A stretch of DNA of 64,000 nucleotides from NCBI RefSeq assembly GCF_021735935.1, contig NZ_WMDZ01000001.1:2542001-2606000 (forward strand), given 5' to 3'. The position numbers and the translations under genes are program-made. Source of the stretch: Sulfitobacter sp. M39 (GTDB lineage: Bacteria > Pseudomonadota > Alphaproteobacteria > Rhodobacterales > Rhodobacteraceae). This document shows, piece after piece, positions 4,202-39,974 of this stretch. The notes under the pieces are model-generated. The model was given only the letters and a program-made list of their open reading frames with translations. It had not been told where the DNA came from and did no database searches. Position 1 is the first letter of the stretch. Every line of letters begins with the position of its first letter.

Positions 4202-4489
4202 GTGTTTGTCCCTGCCTGCGACGCTTGTGCGCCCTAAAATCATGCCCCCGGCGGTAGATGTAGAAACGGCGGGCTGATCTGCTGCCACTGATCAACCCGC
4301 CGCCCGTCCCGCCTTGGCGGGGAAGTCCGACTGCGCGCGCCACCTGGGGGGATGTCTGCTCGCTCGCGCGCCGGATCTCTTGGTCTGATGAAAGCGAGGT
4401 GCCTGTATGAACCTGCTAGAGTTTTATTTGGTCGTTGGGGTCGTTTGGTGCCCCGTGTCTCGTTCTCATCCGATGCACTAGGGATGCCA

Positions 4490-4504
4490 TGGGAATTGAT
4501 GGGC
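4490..4504 (+). promoter_or_regulatory. Weak MraZ-box-like pair
   Basis: TGGGA at 4490 and TGGGC at 4500, exactly 10 bp apart, lie on the plus strand, opposite to the other boxes; another TGGGA lies at 4519. The spacing fits MraZ boxes, but the second copy is imperfect. Confidence 0.3.
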
Positions 4505-4659
4505 GTCCATAAGTTTTTTGGGAAACACACACCAAATTTGGTTTTGCACAGGGTTGTAAATCAACATGTGGGGAAGAAATGTCAGCGATTTTTAGCTTAT
4601 GTCGGTTAAATATGAAATTTAAACACAACATATTGAGGCGAAAAACGCGTGTTGGAATT

Positions 4660-4674
4660 TCCCACAATTTCCCA
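4660..4674 (-). promoter_or_regulatory. Candidate MraZ box pair
   Basis: On the minus strand TGGGA-AATTG-TGGGA, with repeats starting 10 bp apart, matches the spacing and core of the MraZ operator known from E. coli. It points in the direction of mraZ, about 460 bp upstream of it. Confidence 0.5.
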
Positions 4675-4693
4675 ACAATTTTAGACCACAGAC

Positions 4694-4702
4694 TTATCCA
4701 CA
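4694..4702 (+). promoter_or_regulatory. Perfect DnaA box
   Basis: TTATCCACA is an exact match to the consensus high-affinity DnaA box. One-mismatch relatives (TTTTGCACA near 4546, TTAAACACA near 4619) lie in the adjacent AT-rich stretch. It may let DnaA act on dcw transcription; a single perfect box is too little to claim an origin. Confidence 0.5.
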
Positions 4703-4838
4703 ACCTGTGTTCGTGGCTTGTTCCCCAATCGCAACGGCAATTGCTACTGTTTTATCGCGCAAACTGAGGATTCCGCGCCTCAGACAGCCATTTTCCGCCG
4801 AATCACCTTGCCAATCGGGCAGGCTCGGGCCGGCAGCC

Positions 4839-4876
4839 TCCCATGTTTTCCCATGGGGTTTTCCCATGCGATCCCA
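4839..4876 (-). promoter_or_regulatory. Four-repeat MraZ operator candidate
   Basis: On the minus strand, TGGGA occurs four times. The plus-strand complement TCCCA starts at 4839, 4849, 4862 and 4872, giving two pairs with 10-bp spacing separated by 13 bp. The E. coli MraZ site is three TGGGA-type repeats with 10-bp period, so this is the best operator candidate for autoregulation of the dcw operon here. It would place the promoter about 640-680 bp upstream of mraZ. Confidence 0.6.
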
Positions 4877-4909
4877 TACACACGTCCACACGACGCCGAT
4901 GAACGCGAA

Positions 4910-4935
4910 ACGCCGCGCAGGGGGCTACGCGGCGT
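4910..4935 (-). terminator. Hairpin after mrp
   Basis: ACGCCGCG and CGCGGCGT form a perfect 8-bp stem with a 10-nt loop, 35 bases past the mrp stop, followed on the minus strand by TTTCGCGTT. The T tract is weak. A second inverted repeat, GGGGCTAC (4921) with GTAGCCCC (4962), overlaps it. Confidence 0.45.
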
Positions 4936-4969
4936 TGAGTACAGATAGGGTCGTGAAGGAGGTAGCCCC

Positions 4970-6040
4970 TTAGGCCATCCCGCCCTTAATCAAACCTTCG
5001 GCGATGCGTGCATAGGCTTGAGCCATCGGCCCATCACCCGCGGCCACCGGCGTGCCACCATCGCCGGAAAGCCGGGTATCAAGATCGATGGGAAGACTGC
5101 CGAGTAACGGCACCTCCATCTTCGCGGCTTCGGCTGCAACCCCGCCATGACCAAAGATTTCATGTTCGGACCCACAATCAGGACAGACAAACAGCGACAT
5201 ATTCTCGATCAATCCCAACACGGGCGTCTTCAGCGTATTGAACATATCAATCGCCTTGCGCGCGTCGATCAGCGCCACGTCCTGCGGCGTCGATACCACG
5301 ATTGCGCCAGACAATTCGGATTTGGTACATAGTGTCAGCTGCACATCGCCCGTACCCGGCGGCAGATCGACAAGCAACACGTCCAGCTCGCCCCACTCTA
5401 CCTGCCCCAGCATCTGTTGCAGCGCGCCCATCAGCATCGGGCCACGCCAGACCACTGCCTTCCCCTCCTCCATCATGAAGCCGATGGACATCAGGGTCAC
5501 GCCATGGGCGTGCAGCGGAATGATCGTCTTACCATCAGGCGAGGCAGGCCGCTTGTTCACCCCCATCATACGCGGCTGACTGGGACCATAGATATCGGCA
5601 TCCAGCAAACCAACCTTGCGCCCCGCCCGAGCCAAGGCCACGGCGAGGTTCGAGCTCACGGTCGATTTGCCCACGCCCCCCTTGCCCGACCCAATGGCGA
5701 GAATGCGCTGCACGCCAGCCGGTTTCATCGGGCCATCCTGCGCCTTCGGGTGCCCACCAATTTTGAGGCTGGGGGCCGATTGCTTTGGCGCGGGACCATG
5801 GGCCGTCAGGGCGACTGTTACGCTGCCAACGCCCTCAACCTCGCGCACCACGGCCTCTGCCGCGTCGCGCAGCGGGGCCATCTGCGCGGCGACTTGCGCA
5901 TTGGGGGCTTCTATAACAAAGCGCACCACATCGCCCTCGACCGTCAAAGCGCGGATCAGATCGTGATCAAAGATAGATTTTCCATCCGGCAGCATCACCC
6001 GGGCCAGAGCAGATTCGACGTCGGATTTAGAGAGCGGCAT
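4970..6040 (-). CDS. Mrp/ApbC/NBP35-family iron-sulfur cluster carrier ATPase
   Basis: A 356-residue cytoplasmic P-loop ATPase that carries and delivers Fe-S clusters to apoproteins. An N-terminal MIP18/DUF59-like domain (residues 1-85) precedes the deviant Walker A GSGKGGVGKST at about 118, the Mrp signature region around DLPPGTGD, and the C-terminal CPDC metal-binding motif. I prefer the ATG at 6040, with AGGAA 7 nt upstream; a longer frame exists but its extra 36 residues do not look like the family. The gene is transcribed alone. Confidence 0.93.
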   Translation of the reverse strand: MPLSKSDVESALARVMLPDGKSIFDHDLIRALTVEGDVVRFVIEAPNAQVAAQMAPLRDAAEAVVREVEGVGSVTVALTAHGPAPKQSAPSLKIGGHPKAQDGPMKPAGVQRILAIGSGKGGVGKSTVSSNLAVALARAGRKVGLLDADIYGPSQPRMMGVNKRPASPDGKTIIPLHAHGVTLMSIGFMMEEGKAVVWRGPMLMGALQQMLGQVEWGELDVLLVDLPPGTGDVQLTLCTKSELSGAIVVSTPQDVALIDARKAIDMFNTLKTPVLGLIENMSLFVCPDCGSEHEIFGHGGVAAEAAKMEVPLLGSLPIDLDTRLSGDGGTPVAAGDGPMAQAYARIAEGLIKGGMA

Positions 6041-6175
6041 GACATATTCCTTTCGAGACTGCTTTTGACATGGCAGTTTCTGTCCAAATCGCAACCCTAC
6101 GTTCGCATGCCGCACAGCACCAAGGCAAAACGAACATTTAGCGCCCAAAAATTACGCAAAACCCCTATGTTTTCG

Positions 6176-6220
6176 CTGCATGGCAGCAATGCACAATTTG
6201 AGAATTGTGCAAACGCAGCA
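6176..6220 (+). promoter_or_regulatory. Operator-like module 1 upstream of the first sRNA
   Basis: CTGCATGGCAGCA, then 15 bp, then ATTGTGCAAACGCAGCA. The first part contains the palindrome CTGC-N3-GCAG. Between the halves lies a perfect inverted repeat with 9-bp arms, TGCACAATT (6190-6198) and AATTGTGCA (6203-6211). The same two-part module recurs at 6446 and, partly, at 39839. CTGC-N3-GCAG resembles the PhaR box described for Rhodobacter sphaeroides; I recall that from memory and do not assert PhaR here. Confidence 0.5.
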
Positions 6221-6272
6221 AATAGGTCAAAAAGGTTTCAGGAACGCAGACACTGCGAGCCAAGAATAAGAC

Positions 6273-6355
6273 CAAACTCATCCATCCTCCTCCCGGATGT
6301 GTTTGTTTTCGGCGGCGATACCCTCCTCCTCCCTGGTATCGTCGCCATTTTTTTT
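6273..6355 (+). ncRNA. Cuckoo/CcsR-like small RNA with two anti-SD loops and terminator
   Basis: Two consecutive hairpins each expose a CUCCUCCC-type sequence. Hairpin 1 (6273-6305) has stem CAAAC..CATCC/GGATG..GTTTG and loop UCCUCCC. Hairpin 2 (6311-6346) has a 12-bp stem GGCGGCGATACC/GGTATCGTCGCC and loop CUCCUCCUCCCU, followed by eight Ts, so it also acts as terminator. This is the layout of the alphaproteobacterial cuckoo RNAs (CcsR1-4 of R. sphaeroides), which are linked to a DUF1127 gene and induced by RpoH-type sigma factors under stress. The 5' end is not determined. Confidence 0.8.
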
Positions 6356-6445
6356 CATACAACTCCTCCTGACTGCTAAAGCGTTTGCGCTAGGGTTATT
6401 TTGTTCCCGATCAAGACGTTACGTCACCTTTTGCCCATGCATTTT

Positions 6446-6489
6446 CTGCATAGCAGCATTGACGATCTGGCTATTGTGCAGATGCAGCA
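6446..6489 (+). promoter_or_regulatory. Operator-like module 2 upstream of the DUF1127 gene
   Basis: CTGCATAGCAGCA, 14 bp, then ATTGTGCAGATGCAGCA; nearly the same module as at 6176-6220, lying 66-109 bp before the DUF1127 start codon. The 17-bp stretch 6443-6459 is identical to 39837-39853 upstream of the second DUF1127-like gene. The repetition before functionally related genes makes a shared regulator likely. Confidence 0.55.
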
Positions 6490-6554
6490 TTTTACTACAT
6501 AACCAACACAAGACGAATGATAACGAACACAGACGAAACAAGACGAGGTATCCG

Positions 6555-6767
6555 ATGGCCTACTTGAACGCTACAACCGCACCGACCCTGGCAGACCGTT
6601 TTGCCGCGCTGATGTCCGCACTCGAGACTCGCCGCAAGCAACGCCGCGTATACCGCTCCACTTTCAACGAGCTGAGCTCCTTGTCCAACCGCGAGCTGAA
6701 CGACCTGGGCATGGGCCGCTCGCAAATCCGCGGCATCGCGCTGGAAACAGCACGCAACGCTGCATAA
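6555..6767 (+). CDS. DUF1127 small basic protein (RSP_6037-like)
   Basis: A 70-residue arginine-rich protein with the DUF1127/YjiS-like C-terminal pattern (NELSSLSNRELNDLGMGRSQIRGIA). Short DUF1127 proteins have been implicated in RNA-related and stress functions in alphaproteobacteria, but no molecular activity is visible in the sequence. It starts MAYLNATTAP. It is framed by hairpins with CUCCUCCC loops on both sides, as RSP_6037 is in R. sphaeroides, where gene and sRNAs are co-transcribed. It probably shares their stress control. Confidence 0.88.
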   Translation: MAYLNATTAPTLADRFAALMSALETRRKQRRVYRSTFNELSSLSNRELNDLGMGRSQIRGIALETARNAA

Positions 6768-6779
6768 ATCATACTGGAT

Positions 6780-6857
6780 CGGGCACACGCACCCTCCCTG
6801 TTGTGTGCCTGTAGAAAGCTTCGGGTCTCCTCCTCCTCCCTGAGACCGGCGGCTTTC
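6780..6857 (+). ncRNA. Second cuckoo-like sRNA (two CCUCCC-loop hairpins)
   Basis: Twelve bases after the DUF1127 stop begins hairpin 3 (6780-6811), stem GGCACAC/GTGTGCC with CCCUCCC in the loop. Hairpin 4 (6814-6857) follows, stem GAAAGC..GGTCTC/GAGACC..GCTTTC with the loop CUCCUCCUCCCU, identical to the loop at 6323-6334. The proximity to the stop suggests processing from the DUF1127 mRNA, as for the CcsR RNAs. No T-run follows hairpin 4. Confidence 0.72.
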
Positions 6858-6861
6858 ATAA

Positions 6862-6950
6862 ACGTCCCCTTCCCCCTTTCCTCCCGATTGGATTGGGGAC
6901 GTAGATAAAGACGGCGGTGCTTTCCTCCCAAAGCACCGCCGTTCTTGCAT
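6862..6950 (+). ncRNA. Third cuckoo-like sRNA ending in a strong hairpin
   Basis: Hairpin 5 (6862-6902) has stem ACGTCCCC/GGGGACGT and a 25-nt loop holding UUUCCUCCC. Hairpin 6 (6911-6942) has a perfect 13-bp stem ACGGCGGTGCTTT/AAAGCACCGCCGT closing the six-base loop CCUCCC. Hairpin 6 probably ends the DUF1127-sRNA transcript and, read on the other strand (followed by CTTTATCT), the uvrD transcript. The long loop of hairpin 5 makes this unit the least typical of the three. Confidence 0.65.
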
Positions 6951-6987
6951 CTAATTCTTGATAATTCGTAAAACTCATGACGCCCGT

Positions 6988-9408
6988 TTAGAACGGAACG
7001 TCATCCGATGCGCTCAGATAGCGCGACACGACCTTCTTGACCCCGGCCTTGTCAAAGCTGATCTCAAGCTTATCCCCTTCGATTCCAACAACTTCGCCAT
7101 AGCCAAATTTCTGGTGGAACACCCGCTCCCCCATTGCAAAACTGCTGACGGCGGACATGTCGATCGTCACATTTCGGGCTTCCGAAGGCTGGCTCACGCT
7201 GCGCGCTTGGCTGCGCGTCTGCAATCTGCGCCACCCCGGAGAATTATATACATTCGCTTCAGCGGCTTTTTCATGTAGATTCGATTTGGGCATCGCAGCG
7301 CCATACCCGCCACCATACAGACCCGGCGGGGTCAGCACATCCACATGGGCTTCGGGAAGTTCGTCGATAAACCGTGACGGCATGGCGCTTTGCCACTGAC
7401 CAAACACGCGGCGGTTGGCCGCAAAAGAGATCGTGCAAAGCTGCTCTGCCCGGGTGATTCCGACATAGGCAAGCCGCCGCTCTTCCTCCAGCCCCTTCAG
7501 GCCGGATTCGTCCATCGATCGCTGCGACGGAAACAGCCCATCCTCCCAGCCGGGAAGAAACACCGCGGGAAACTCAAGCCCCTTGGCCGCGTGCAACGTC
7601 ATGATCGACACTTTCGCGCCGCCATTGTCGCTTTCATTATCCATAATCAAGCTGACGTGTTCCAGAAAACCTTGAAGATTCTCGAACTGCTCCAACGCTT
7701 TAACCAGCTCCTTCAGGTTCTCGAGCCGCCCCGGAGCTTCCGGCGTTTTGTCGTTCTGCCAAAACCCAGTATATCCGCTTTCATCCAAAATAATCTGCGC
7801 CAATTCCACATGGCTGACTTCGGGCGGGCCATATTCCTCGTGAAACAGCGGCGCACCTTCATCGATGACGCTATCGTCATCAACCACAGTCTGTAGGCGC
7901 GGGCCCTGCGCCAGTTCGGACCAGCGCTGAATCCCGTCGATGAGCAAACGCAACTGCGCCGCACCACGACCGCCAATCCCGCCATTCGCCAAAAGGATCC
8001 GCGCCCCCTCCACCAGGTTCACACCGTTTTCGCGCGCGGTTTTCTGTATATTTTGTTGCGCTTTATCACCCAAACCACGCTTGGGCGTGTTTACGATTCT
8101 CTCAAAAGCAAGATCGTCATCAGGCGAGGTAACCACCCTGAAATAGGCCATGGCGTCGCGAATTTCTAACCGTTCATAGAAACGCGGGCCACCGATCACG
8201 CGGTACGGTAGGCCAATGGTCAGGAAACGATCCTCGAACGCGCGCATCTGGTGCGATGCCCGTACAAGAATCGCCATATCGTCCAATGTGTATGGATCAA
8301 GCTCGCGTGTGCCGCGCTGCAACGCTTCGATTTCGTCGCCGATCCAACGCGCCTCTTCCTCGCCATCCCAATGGCCGATAAGACGCAGCTTTTCACCCTC
8401 CCGGGATTCCGTCCACAAGGTCTTGCCCAAACGCCCCTCATTTCCTGCGATCACGCCCGAAGCGGCCGCCAGGATGTGCGGTGTTGACCGGTAATTCTGT
8501 TCCAACCGCACCACATGAGCGCCGGGAAAATCTTTTTCGAACCGCAGGATGTTGCCAACCTCGGCCCCTCGCCATCCGTAGATCGACTGGTCGTCATCCC
8601 CGACACAGCAGATATTCTTGTGGCCAGAGGCCAGCAGACGGAGCCACAAATACTGTGCCACGTTGGTATCCTGATACTCATCCACCAGAATATATTTGAA
8701 CCACCGCTGATATTGCCCCAGCACGTCTTCGTGCTGCTGGAAGATGGTGACCATATGCAGCAGCAAATCACCGAAGTCGCAGGCGTTCAGATCTTTAAGC
8801 CGCGCTTGATACTGCGCATAAAGCTCCGCCCCGCGGTGGTTATAGGCCCCCGCATCGGCCGTAGGAATTTTGTCGGGCGTCAATGCGCGATTTTTCCAGC
8901 TATCAATAACGCCTGACAGCAAACGTGCGGGCCAACGTTTGTCATCAATCCCTTCCGCCTTGATCAACTGCTTGAGCAGACGCAGCTGGTCATCCGTGTC
9001 CAGAATGGTGAAGTTCGACTTTAGCCCGACCAATTCAGCATGGCGGCGCAACAGCTTGACGCAAATCGCATGAAACGTACCCAGCCAAGGCATCCCTTCA
9101 ATGCTCTGCCCCAGCATATGCCCCACACGGTTTTTCATCTCGCGCGCGGCCTTATTGGTGAAGGTTACCGCGAGAATCTCGTTCGGGCGGGCGCGCCCGG
9201 CGTTCATCAGATGCACGATCCGTGCCGTCAAAGCCTTGGTCTTGCCCGTGCCTGCCCCCGCGAGCATCAAGACAGGGCCGTCCATCTGCTCCACCGCGGC
9301 ACGCTGGGCCGGATTTAGCCCATCAAGATAGGGTTGCGGACGCGCAGCCATAGCGCGCGATGATAGGGAAGCGCCCTCAAAGGCGGCCATTTCGTCAAAA
9401 TCATTCAT
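6988..9408 (-). CDS. ATP-dependent 3'-5' DNA helicase, UvrD/PcrA family
   Basis: An 806-residue superfamily 1 helicase for nucleotide excision and mismatch repair and for clearing replication obstacles. It shows the Q/Walker A region (LAGAGTGKTKALTARI), motif II VDEYQDTN, motif III GDDDQSIYGWRGA, motif IV EQNYRS, motif V TLHAAKGLEFPAVF and motif VI EERRLAYVGITRA. The C-terminus (about residues 735-800) has the PcrA/UvrD Tudor-like fold sequence GERVFHQKFGYGEVVGIEGD that contacts RNA polymerase. Length and domain order are those of alphaproteobacterial UvrD/PcrA. It is monocistronic. Confidence 0.95.
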   Translation of the reverse strand: MNDFDEMAAFEGASLSSRAMAARPQPYLDGLNPAQRAAVEQMDGPVLMLAGAGTGKTKALTARIVHLMNAGRARPNEILAVTFTNKAAREMKNRVGHMLGQSIEGMPWLGTFHAICVKLLRRHAELVGLKSNFTILDTDDQLRLLKQLIKAEGIDDKRWPARLLSGVIDSWKNRALTPDKIPTADAGAYNHRGAELYAQYQARLKDLNACDFGDLLLHMVTIFQQHEDVLGQYQRWFKYILVDEYQDTNVAQYLWLRLLASGHKNICCVGDDDQSIYGWRGAEVGNILRFEKDFPGAHVVRLEQNYRSTPHILAAASGVIAGNEGRLGKTLWTESREGEKLRLIGHWDGEEEARWIGDEIEALQRGTRELDPYTLDDMAILVRASHQMRAFEDRFLTIGLPYRVIGGPRFYERLEIRDAMAYFRVVTSPDDDLAFERIVNTPKRGLGDKAQQNIQKTARENGVNLVEGARILLANGGIGGRGAAQLRLLIDGIQRWSELAQGPRLQTVVDDDSVIDEGAPLFHEEYGPPEVSHVELAQIILDESGYTGFWQNDKTPEAPGRLENLKELVKALEQFENLQGFLEHVSLIMDNESDNGGAKVSIMTLHAAKGLEFPAVFLPGWEDGLFPSQRSMDESGLKGLEEERRLAYVGITRAEQLCTISFAANRRVFGQWQSAMPSRFIDELPEAHVDVLTPPGLYGGGYGAAMPKSNLHEKAAEANVYNSPGWRRLQTRSQARSVSQPSEARNVTIDMSAVSSFAMGERVFHQKFGYGEVVGIEGDKLEISFDKAGVKKVVSRYLSASDDVPF

Positions 9409-39510: not shown

Positions 39511-39747
39511 TCAGACGTAATATGTGTCGCGGAAAACATGGTGCACGATGTCATCACGTTTGATGCCCATCGCGGCCAGCTCTTCGTCGGTTTTGGACTG
39601 CAGGAATGCCACCTGACGCATCCGGCCCGAATTCGCACCCGCTGCGATCAAACCGTTCCAGATGGCAGCAAAGAACCCGCCGATGACGGCGAAGGGGGCT
39701 TTGATGGTGGGGACGTTGCTTTGCGAAATTGTGCTGTTGTAAGCCAT
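39511..39747 (-). CDS. DUF1127-like small protein
   Basis: A 78-residue protein. The N-terminal half is hydrophobic (IKAPFAVIGGFFAAIWNGLI) and the C-terminal part (LQSKTDEELAAMGIKRDDIV) follows the DUF1127 pattern. The hydrophobic helix suggests membrane association. It is monocistronic with its own terminator, and its upstream region shares a 17-bp identity with that of the DUF1127 gene at 6555. No sRNA hairpins with CUCCUCCC loops follow it. Confidence 0.8.
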   Translation of the reverse strand: MAYNSTISQSNVPTIKAPFAVIGGFFAAIWNGLIAAGANSGRMRQVAFLQSKTDEELAAMGIKRDDIVHHVFRDTYYV

Positions 39748-39838
39748 AATAAACTCTCGATTTATCTTGGCATTTCTGCCGGTTACCTTGTTCTGCCTCT
39801 TAATATAACGAAGCAATCCCCAATGAGAACCGACGTTT

Positions 39839-39875
39839 CTGCATAGCAGCATCCCGAAGATGCCGCATCGCAGCA
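39839..39875 (-). promoter_or_regulatory. Operator-like module 3 upstream of the second DUF1127-like gene
   Basis: Written on the plus strand: CTGCATAGCAGCA, a short spacer, then ATGCCGCATCGCAGCA. The first 13 bases equal module 2 at 6446. The spacing between the halves is 7-8 bp shorter than in modules 1 and 2, and the orientation relative to the gene is inverted. It lies about 90-130 bp before the start codon. Confidence 0.45.
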
Positions 39876-39974
39876 TGGCTTTGCGCATGTTTCACGCAGG
39901 CATCACAAATCACCGCGCAATAAATGCGCAGAATGAAAACATGTCAGAGTAACTGCCCTAAAACCGTACTAACA

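Follow-up and report, generated by a model that had tools for sequence, protein, structure and literature searches.

The window analyzed here is a 64,000-nucleotide (nt) stretch of contig NZ_WMDZ01000001.1 of Sulfitobacter sp. M39, in which a short DUF1127 gene lies among hairpins whose loops expose a CCUCCC-type sequence, that of the anti-Shine-Dalgarno (aSD) end of 16S rRNA. CcsR-like or cuckoo RNAs beside a DUF1127 gene are already known; the locus is a genus-wide split variant of this arrangement and carries a duplicated promoter element resembling the LsrB/VtlR box. We consider it quite probable that the locus holds a stand-alone gene for an aSD small RNA (sRNA), uncoupled from the DUF1127 operon, and that it is served by a LysR-type activator.

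An earlier, sequence-only reading of this region had described six successive stem-loops with CCUCCC-type loops, and exactly six were returned when a stem finder scanned positions 6100-7100 for hairpins with CCTCC or CTCCC in the loop. In 300 dinucleotide shuffles of 6260-6960 such hairpins numbered 0.33 on average and never more than 3, against the 6 observed. Across the whole window, on both strands and under a loose criterion, 33 such hairpins were found, so that one hairpin alone means little and it is the cluster of six that stands out. All six are on the plus strand. Hairpin 1 (6269-6309, loop AUCCUCCUCCC) and hairpin 2 (6311-6346, a 12-base-pair (bp) stem with the loop CUCCUCCUCCCU) precede the DUF1127 gene (6555-6767, +) and are supported by the stem finder, by folding and by compensatory changes. 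Behind hairpin 2 stand an A and a run of eight T (6348-6355), in keeping with the T-run ending described earlier, and hairpin and run together look like an intrinsic terminator; it is missing from the terminator scan, whose loop limit of 8 nt its 12-nt loop exceeds. The other four hairpins follow the gene, and hairpin 3 begins 12 nt past its stop codon, inside the 13 bp previously noted. Hairpins 3 (6780-6811) and 4 (6814-6857) were recovered by the stem finder, and hairpins 5 (6871-6899 in the stem finder, 6862-6902 with a wider stem) and 6 (about 6906-6947) by the stem finder and in the fold. The loops of hairpins 2 and 4 are indeed identical over 12 nt, CTCCTCCTCCCT. Hairpin 5 is the weakest of the six because 25 nt separate the arms of its 8-bp G+C-rich stem (6862-6869 with 6895-6902). 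The loop of hairpin 6 exposes CCUCCC only, and the plus-strand sequence behind it, TTCTTGCATC, makes a poor T-run. In the terminator scan its stem (6911-6942) was scored on the minus strand only, 46 nt beyond the end of a pcrA-like gene; the stem reads as a minus-strand terminator too, so that two converging transcripts may share it. Single-strand folds of the three hairpin pairs, each set against 200 shuffles, gave z scores of -6.4 (6262-6352), -3.4 (6774-6860) and -7.6 (6855-6950), and 0, 1 and 0 of the shuffles, respectively, folded as well.

The hairpins fall into an upstream CcsR/alpha-r14-like unit (6268-6350, +), a downstream unit 1 consisting of hairpins 3-4 (6776-6855, +) and a downstream unit 2 consisting of hairpins 5-6 (6862-6947, +). 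The sequence-only reading had proposed three CcsR-like units and a check of the region with Rfam models; the first part stood and the formal assignment did not. At a relaxed threshold the CcsR1 model (RF02791) gave three full-length matches at the expected places, 6268-6350 (37.8 bits, E 3.2e-7, model positions 1-83), 6776-6855 (15.1 bits) and 6864-6947 (23.4 bits), the last two of them weak, and no Rfam family reached its gathering score anywhere in the window. The best Rfam match by bits was that of ar14 (RF02344) at 6266-6386 (42.2 bits, E 5e-6), and the upstream unit stays under the gathering scores of both families, 65.3 bits for RF02791 and 58.8 bits for RF02344. A missing gathering score is usual in this bacterial family, because CcsR1 matched 169/198 family genomes at E<=0.01 and exceeded its gathering score in only 9/198; one of 14 control genomes gave a CcsR1 match, below the cut-off. 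The whole 3.34-Mb source genome has one CcsR1 match at E<=0.01 (E 1.5e-7), its place unlisted, which is presumably the upstream unit. The pair of stem-loops with CCUCCUCCC-type loops that characterizes CcsR RNAs is present at 6268-6350, and the downstream units match weakly. Placement 3' of DUF1127 is true of the two downstream units and untrue of the upstream one, which has its terminator-like end before the gene. In place of the three CCUCCUCCC hairpins of alpha-r14/NfeR1 the upstream unit has two, the third model stem pairing badly, and the short DUF1127 gene beside CcsR-like sRNAs that marks Cuckoo/CIN1 loci is present (PF06568, hairpins, covariation). As the gathering scores, and for RF02344 also the three hairpins, are lacking, strict filing under either family is unwarranted: the upstream unit is CcsR-like, not a member of RF02791. 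Our own model R1 was made from upstream units, with 30 of its 32 sequences taken from genus loci, many of them within genomes later searched; it scores the upstream unit at 106 bits by construction, since that unit is in the model, and downstream unit 1 (6770-6860) at 29.4 bits (E 6.5e-6).

The sequence-only reading had staked its assignment in part on covariance or loop conservation in related genomes, and both were found. We aligned 32 distinct upstream units from the genus over 101 columns, in which the two CCTCCTCCC loops are largely constant while the stems vary. The consensus structure was itself derived from this alignment and is favoured in the counts for that reason. With it, paired cells reached 97.9%, compared to 88.8% in 500 shuffles; 11 of 19 pairs were changed on both sides (6.5 in shuffles) and 65 cells carried double changes (18.2 in shuffles), and none of the 500 shuffles attained these three values. 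The count of further pair types was unexceptional, 24 against 21.6, with 58/500 shuffles reaching 24. Slid structures paired in just 31-56% of cells. The compensatory changes support both upstream hairpins.

The split layout is common to the genus Sulfitobacter and not peculiar to this genome. A strong CCUCC hairpin lies 30-450 nt upstream of DUF1127 in 55/55 genus loci, and in 47/55 an upstream hairpin is T-tailed. These loci represent 55 readable genomes, 30 fetched by protein match and 25 via model R1, and the latter 25, having been obtained by an R1 match, are no independent test of the presence of the upstream unit. Left out of the count were L210 and L224 (a stretch without DUF1127, contig ends), G004 (64% complete, no match) and L005-L008 (repeat genomes or extra records). 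R1 itself matches 57/58 genus genomes and 54/54 of those of good quality. For comparison, we drew loci from 86 genomes out of the 169 with a match, one per genus, picked by the best CcsR1 match and hence non-random and biased; DUF1127 was detected in 73/86, and the 13 loci lacking a detectable gene were excluded. Hairpins occur downstream of DUF1127 in 73/73 (1 to 14 each), a single strong upstream hairpin in 3/73 and a T-tailed upstream hairpin in 0/73, with one gene counted where a locus has several and the 0/73 applying to the counted gene. In this sample downstream-only is the usual layout, from which the split one differs, in agreement with the sequence-only reading. Many of these loci have mrp and pcrA as neighbours, though not every fetched stretch does. 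One genome (G066; loci L064/L156) carries four tandem DUF1127 genes with CCUCC hairpins in between, so that the hairpins of one module precede the next gene. Free CCUCC arrays occur in other Rhodobacteraceae genera (L147 (=L077), L140, L142, L149, L163, L165, L052, L065 (=L191) and L087 (=L197)); the promoter element described below lies ~30-120 nt ahead of them, and no DUF1127 gene was detected in the interval. A free-standing unit is thus not unique per se, and it is the split at the same locus that marks the genus in our sample.

Could the hairpins serve chiefly as decoys or binding sites for the RNA-binding DUF1127 protein, in autoregulation or RNA stabilization, with mRNA pairing secondary? 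CcaF1 of Rhodobacter sphaeroides is reported to bind RNA and to affect CcsR maturation (PMC10253847, PMC8307010), and the family loci fetched by a CcsR match mostly contain the gene, as counted above. Conservation of the CCUCCUCCC loop while the stems vary is what an aSD seed would lead one to expect, related loops are described as proven seeds in NfeR1 (PMC10746234), and several hairpin arrays have no detected DUF1127 gene. We regard the decoy explanation as the least likely of those considered here.

Supporting a separate sRNA gene, the same promoter element stands before the upstream sRNA unit and again before DUF1127, a duplication newly described here. The copy belonging to the upstream unit (6174-6220, +) consists of the box CGCTGCATGGCAGCAATG (6174-6191), TTGTGC (6205-6210) and GCAGCA (6215-6220); the copy before DUF1127 (6444-6489, +) consists of TTCTGCATAGCAGCATTG, TTGTGC (6474-6479) and GCAGCA (6484-6489). 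Positions 6193-6220 and 6462-6489 form a repeat of 75% identity within the longer duplicated element, whose full form is TGCTGCATRGCAGCATTG, ~11 nt, ATTGTGCA, 2-4 nt and GCAGCA. At the DUF1127 copy, TACATA (6496-6501) is a possible -10 hexamer with a spacer of 16, if TTGTGC is taken as a putative -35. Ahead of the upstream unit the element scored 26-31 in 34/34 genus loci, as compared to a best score of 19.4 in 106 control windows, where the spacing term differed slightly from that of the 55-genome scoring. In that scoring it reached at least 26 at the sRNA unit in 54/55 genus genomes. The DUF1127 copy is more variable within the genus: strong (>=26) in 21/55, the window's own among them, with 11 copies of intermediate score and 23 scoring <22; a slight change in the spacing term made these counts 21, 9 and 25. 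In other genera the element scored >=26 before DUF1127 in 67/73. The exact element pattern has 36 matches in 35/149 family genomes and the reversed pattern 0; 30 of the 36 were given loci and examined, and 24 of these have DUF1127 <=500 nt downstream, 5 have at least two CCUCC hairpins without a detected DUF1127 gene, and the remaining one has a lone hairpin. The source genome holds four copies of the core CTGCATRGCAGC: two at this locus, a third ~60 nt ahead of the first start codon in another DUF1127 open reading frame (ORF) and a fourth upstream of a small ORF at 39511-39747. Over the 34 genus loci the letters TTGT and TA--TA before DUF1127 are conserved at >=80%; in the 31 DUF1127 copies scoring <24, conservation falls to only 50-80% at most positions of the -35/-10-like block. 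The suspicion that the upstream unit is independently controlled is thus borne out to the extent that a conserved promoter element and a terminator-like hairpin of its own point that way.

The main rival to this interpretation is attenuation, in which the upstream unit would belong to a long DUF1127 leader, its terminator stopping most transcripts and read-through yielding DUF1127. A Sinorhizobium DUF1127 gene is reportedly controlled by leader attenuation (PMC12218461), and where the DUF1127 element has decayed (<22 in 23/55) the gene might rely on the upstream promoter; there the rival keeps some plausibility. However, a promoter-like block separates terminator and DUF1127, with a strong element in 21/55 genomes including this one, and stems that covary while their loops stay largely constant are more than a plain terminator requires. 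The Sinorhizobium case, moreover, is described as lacking an intrinsic terminator and acting through an upstream ORF (PMC12218461). We therefore judge attenuation improbable, marginally less so than the decoy explanation. A coding reading of the upstream unit was rejected: the in-frame ORF 6297-6767 crosses the terminator-like hairpin, and the length of the open frame varies in close relatives (165, 98 and 104 amino acids in G000, G013 and G012).

As to the factor acting on the duplicated element, the box resembles that of VtlR/LsrB, which controls DUF1127 genes and sRNAs in Rhizobiales (PMC12595884, PMC7486931, PMC8844928). In Brucella, VtlR is described as the primary regulator of DUF1127 proteins and activates AbcR2, and its binding motif is given as CAATGCAGCCATGCA (PMC12595884); an LsrB motif lies at -61 to -49 in PabcR1 (PMC8844928). 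We compared the reverse complement of the VtlR motif with the element after the likeness had been noticed, and it matched at >=13/15 letters in 54/73 other-genus loci, compared to at most 1/73 (mean 0.065) for 200 shuffled motifs; 0/124 downstream control windows reached 13/15. Both copies in the window match at 13/15. The box starts 27-28 nt before TTGTGC in 171/183 copies, which, with TTGTGC taken as the -35 hexamer, would place it at roughly -63 to -51.

The element might instead be a site for PhaR or for another factor that is not a LysR-type, LsrB-like activator. PhaR of R. sphaeroides is reported to bind CTGCNNNGCAG (PMC12542648), and CTGCATRGCAG satisfies that site. In the source genome, the PhaR-like sites by phaP- and phaR-like genes have the centres ACT, ATT and AAT, which fit the RNY centre of the Sinorhizobium PhaR motif (PMC12542648); the centre of our element, in contrast, is ATA or ATG in 124/127 copies having GCA-N2-GC (141 copies were scored, and 14 without GCA-N2-GC were omitted from this count), and the VtlR match spans 15 letters. 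A PhaR site is accordingly less likely than a LysR-type box on the letters of the element, and we place a PhaR site or other non-LysR factor at a rather low probability, above that of attenuation. The PhaR-like sites, similar to the DUF1127 element without being the same, lie in a stretch of the source genome (L132 1490-2140, contig C1 near 1533000) with phaC-, phaP- and phaR-like genes, the names being our reading of the ORFs.

With a LysR-type activator as the preferred reading, the mechanism that we envisage runs as follows; transcription, activator identity, RNA pairing with targets and processing are parts of it that we infer. The upstream unit would be transcribed from its own promoter to its own intrinsic terminator, giving an RNA of ~85-115 nt with two exposed CCUCCUCCC loops, and the primary transcript perhaps spans about 6237-6355 with a predicted 5' end. 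Through these loops the RNA would bind the purine-rich ribosome-binding sites of its target mRNAs and prevent their translation, as in the Sinorhizobium sRNA NfeR1, which has three CCUCCUCCC hairpins, is directly activated by LsrB and silences ntrB via its aSD loops (PMC10746234). DUF1127 and the two downstream units would form one separate operon, and RNase E, with the DUF1127 protein taking part, would release the downstream sRNAs from the tail of the mRNA, by analogy with CcaF1-CcsR1-4 of R. sphaeroides, where CcsR RNAs are processed from mRNA (PMC8625941, PMC8307010). Since both promoters bear the LsrB/VtlR-box-like element, a LysR-type activator probably drives both here. In the part of the genus in which the DUF1127 copy has decayed and the sRNA copy is retained, the sRNA would become separated from the protein. 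Going further, we tentatively suggest that the LsrB/VtlR-type switch extends beyond Rhizobiales, with ccaF1-CcsR controlled across Rhodobacteraceae by a LysR-type regulator whose box is almost identical. In Sulfitobacter, promoter and sRNA would have been duplicated together to the upstream position; later decay of the DUF1127 box in many members would have shifted the signal from protein plus sRNA to sRNA alone. We think this scenario somewhat likelier to fail than to hold.

Several observations weigh against this interpretation, besides the missing gathering scores and the motif comparison made after the fact. Eight of the 55 upstream units have no clear T-tail and carry three or four upstream hairpins; five of these had their tails read, which are C/T-rich. 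A sigma-70 consensus promoter scan found none in the region, and the -10 region of the upstream unit is poor by eye. The shorter LsrB/VtlR consensus GCAT-N3-TG-N3-T (PMC7486931) occurs exactly in only 2/55 upstream, 2/55 DUF1127 and 4/73 other-genus copies. LsrB has been called unique to Rhizobiales (PMC11975290), and the ccaF1-CcsR promoter of R. sphaeroides is assigned to RpoHI/RpoHII (PMC10253847). The exact loop partner GGGAGGAGG is not enriched across the whole genome, with 11 occurrences against 11 for the reversed pattern, and three of the 11 are the sRNA genes themselves; targets therefore probably pair over fewer than 9 bases. R. sphaeroides CcaF1 is reported to complement an Agrobacterium mutant in a PhoR-linked process (PMC12501420), which suggests protein contacts, so that an RNA-processing role of DUF1127 may not hold here. 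A search for AbcR (RF02345) as a route to a neighbouring lsrB gave no match in 58 genomes of the class, the controls likewise, and is uninformative.

Among known systems, the locus is closest in gene order to CcsR1-4/CcaF1 (RSP_6037) of R. sphaeroides (RF02791), where DUF1127 is likewise closely trailed by CCUCCUCCC-type two-hairpin units (PMC10253847). There are two downstream units here and four in R. sphaeroides, the scores here stay under the gathering threshold, and an extra unit lies upstream that has a promoter element and a terminator-like hairpin to itself. NfeR1/alpha-r14 of rhizobia (RF02344) is a stand-alone aSD-loop sRNA, as the upstream unit is proposed to be; it has an LsrB-type site upstream (PMC10746234), and our unit has a conserved box-like element in front of it as part of a putative promoter. 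Unlike NfeR1, the Sulfitobacter unit has two hairpins and not three (CUCCUCC is present after the T-run, but the third ar14 stem pairs badly), and it adjoins a DUF1127 gene. The Cuckoo/CIN1 locus, likened here by description (PMC10253847), shares the short DUF1127 protein and the CcsR-like sRNAs and differs in the split arrangement and duplicated promoter element seen here. The VtlR/LsrB regulon of Rhizobiales has, as reported, a similar box and the same kinds of clients, DUF1127 genes and sRNAs; our locus belongs to another order, Rhodobacterales, with a LysR-type protein as its candidate regulator. Neither the split layout nor a LysR-type box at Rhodobacteraceae CcsR loci was met in general-term literature searches, with subscription papers mostly outside their reach.

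CcsR RNAs are studied as pieces of a message for an RNA-binding protein, and because this protein also affects their maturation, effects of RNA and protein are hard to separate. In this genus one copy is seemingly a free gene, and many members have kept the box there and lost it at the gene for the protein; nature thus appears to have pulled the two apart, and an sRNA with its own copy of the switch sequence could be controlled separately from the protein. The box further predicts a single LysR-type input to DUF1127 and aSD sRNAs outside Rhizobiales, including R. sphaeroides.

The DUF1127 gene itself encodes a CcaF1-like protein of 70 amino acids (PF06568, 44.5 bits) that is 96% identical in Sulfitobacter litoralis DSM 17584, a strain in which the locus is present (L005), with relatives at 79-83% in S. 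marinus and Roseobacter sp. GAI101, and the source genome has four DUF1127 genes above the Pfam cut-off. Behind another of its DUF1127 genes (L003 1408-1690, contig C1 near 2097400) stands just one hairpin with a CCUCCC loop, trailed by T-rich sequence, possibly a one-hairpin form of the same arrangement. The eight genus loci that lack a clear T-run and have three or four CCUCC hairpins ahead of the gene (L017-L019, L022, L023, L201, L203 and L208) form a sub-group whose extra hairpins are apparently a doubled upstream unit. The small protein encoded at 39511-39747 (-) resembles DUF1127 by eye at its C-terminal end (LQSKTDEELAAMGIKRDDIVHHVFRD) and gave no Pfam match; directly upstream of its ORF, at 39837-39879, are two tandem copies of a box-like palindrome. 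Finally, a long stretch at 4290-4970 (-) reads as having no obvious gene ahead of an mraZ-like ORF, which heads what appears to be a division/cell-wall cluster (gene names from our reading of the ORFs); in R. sphaeroides the sRNA UpsM is made from an mraZ-type leader (PMC8625941).

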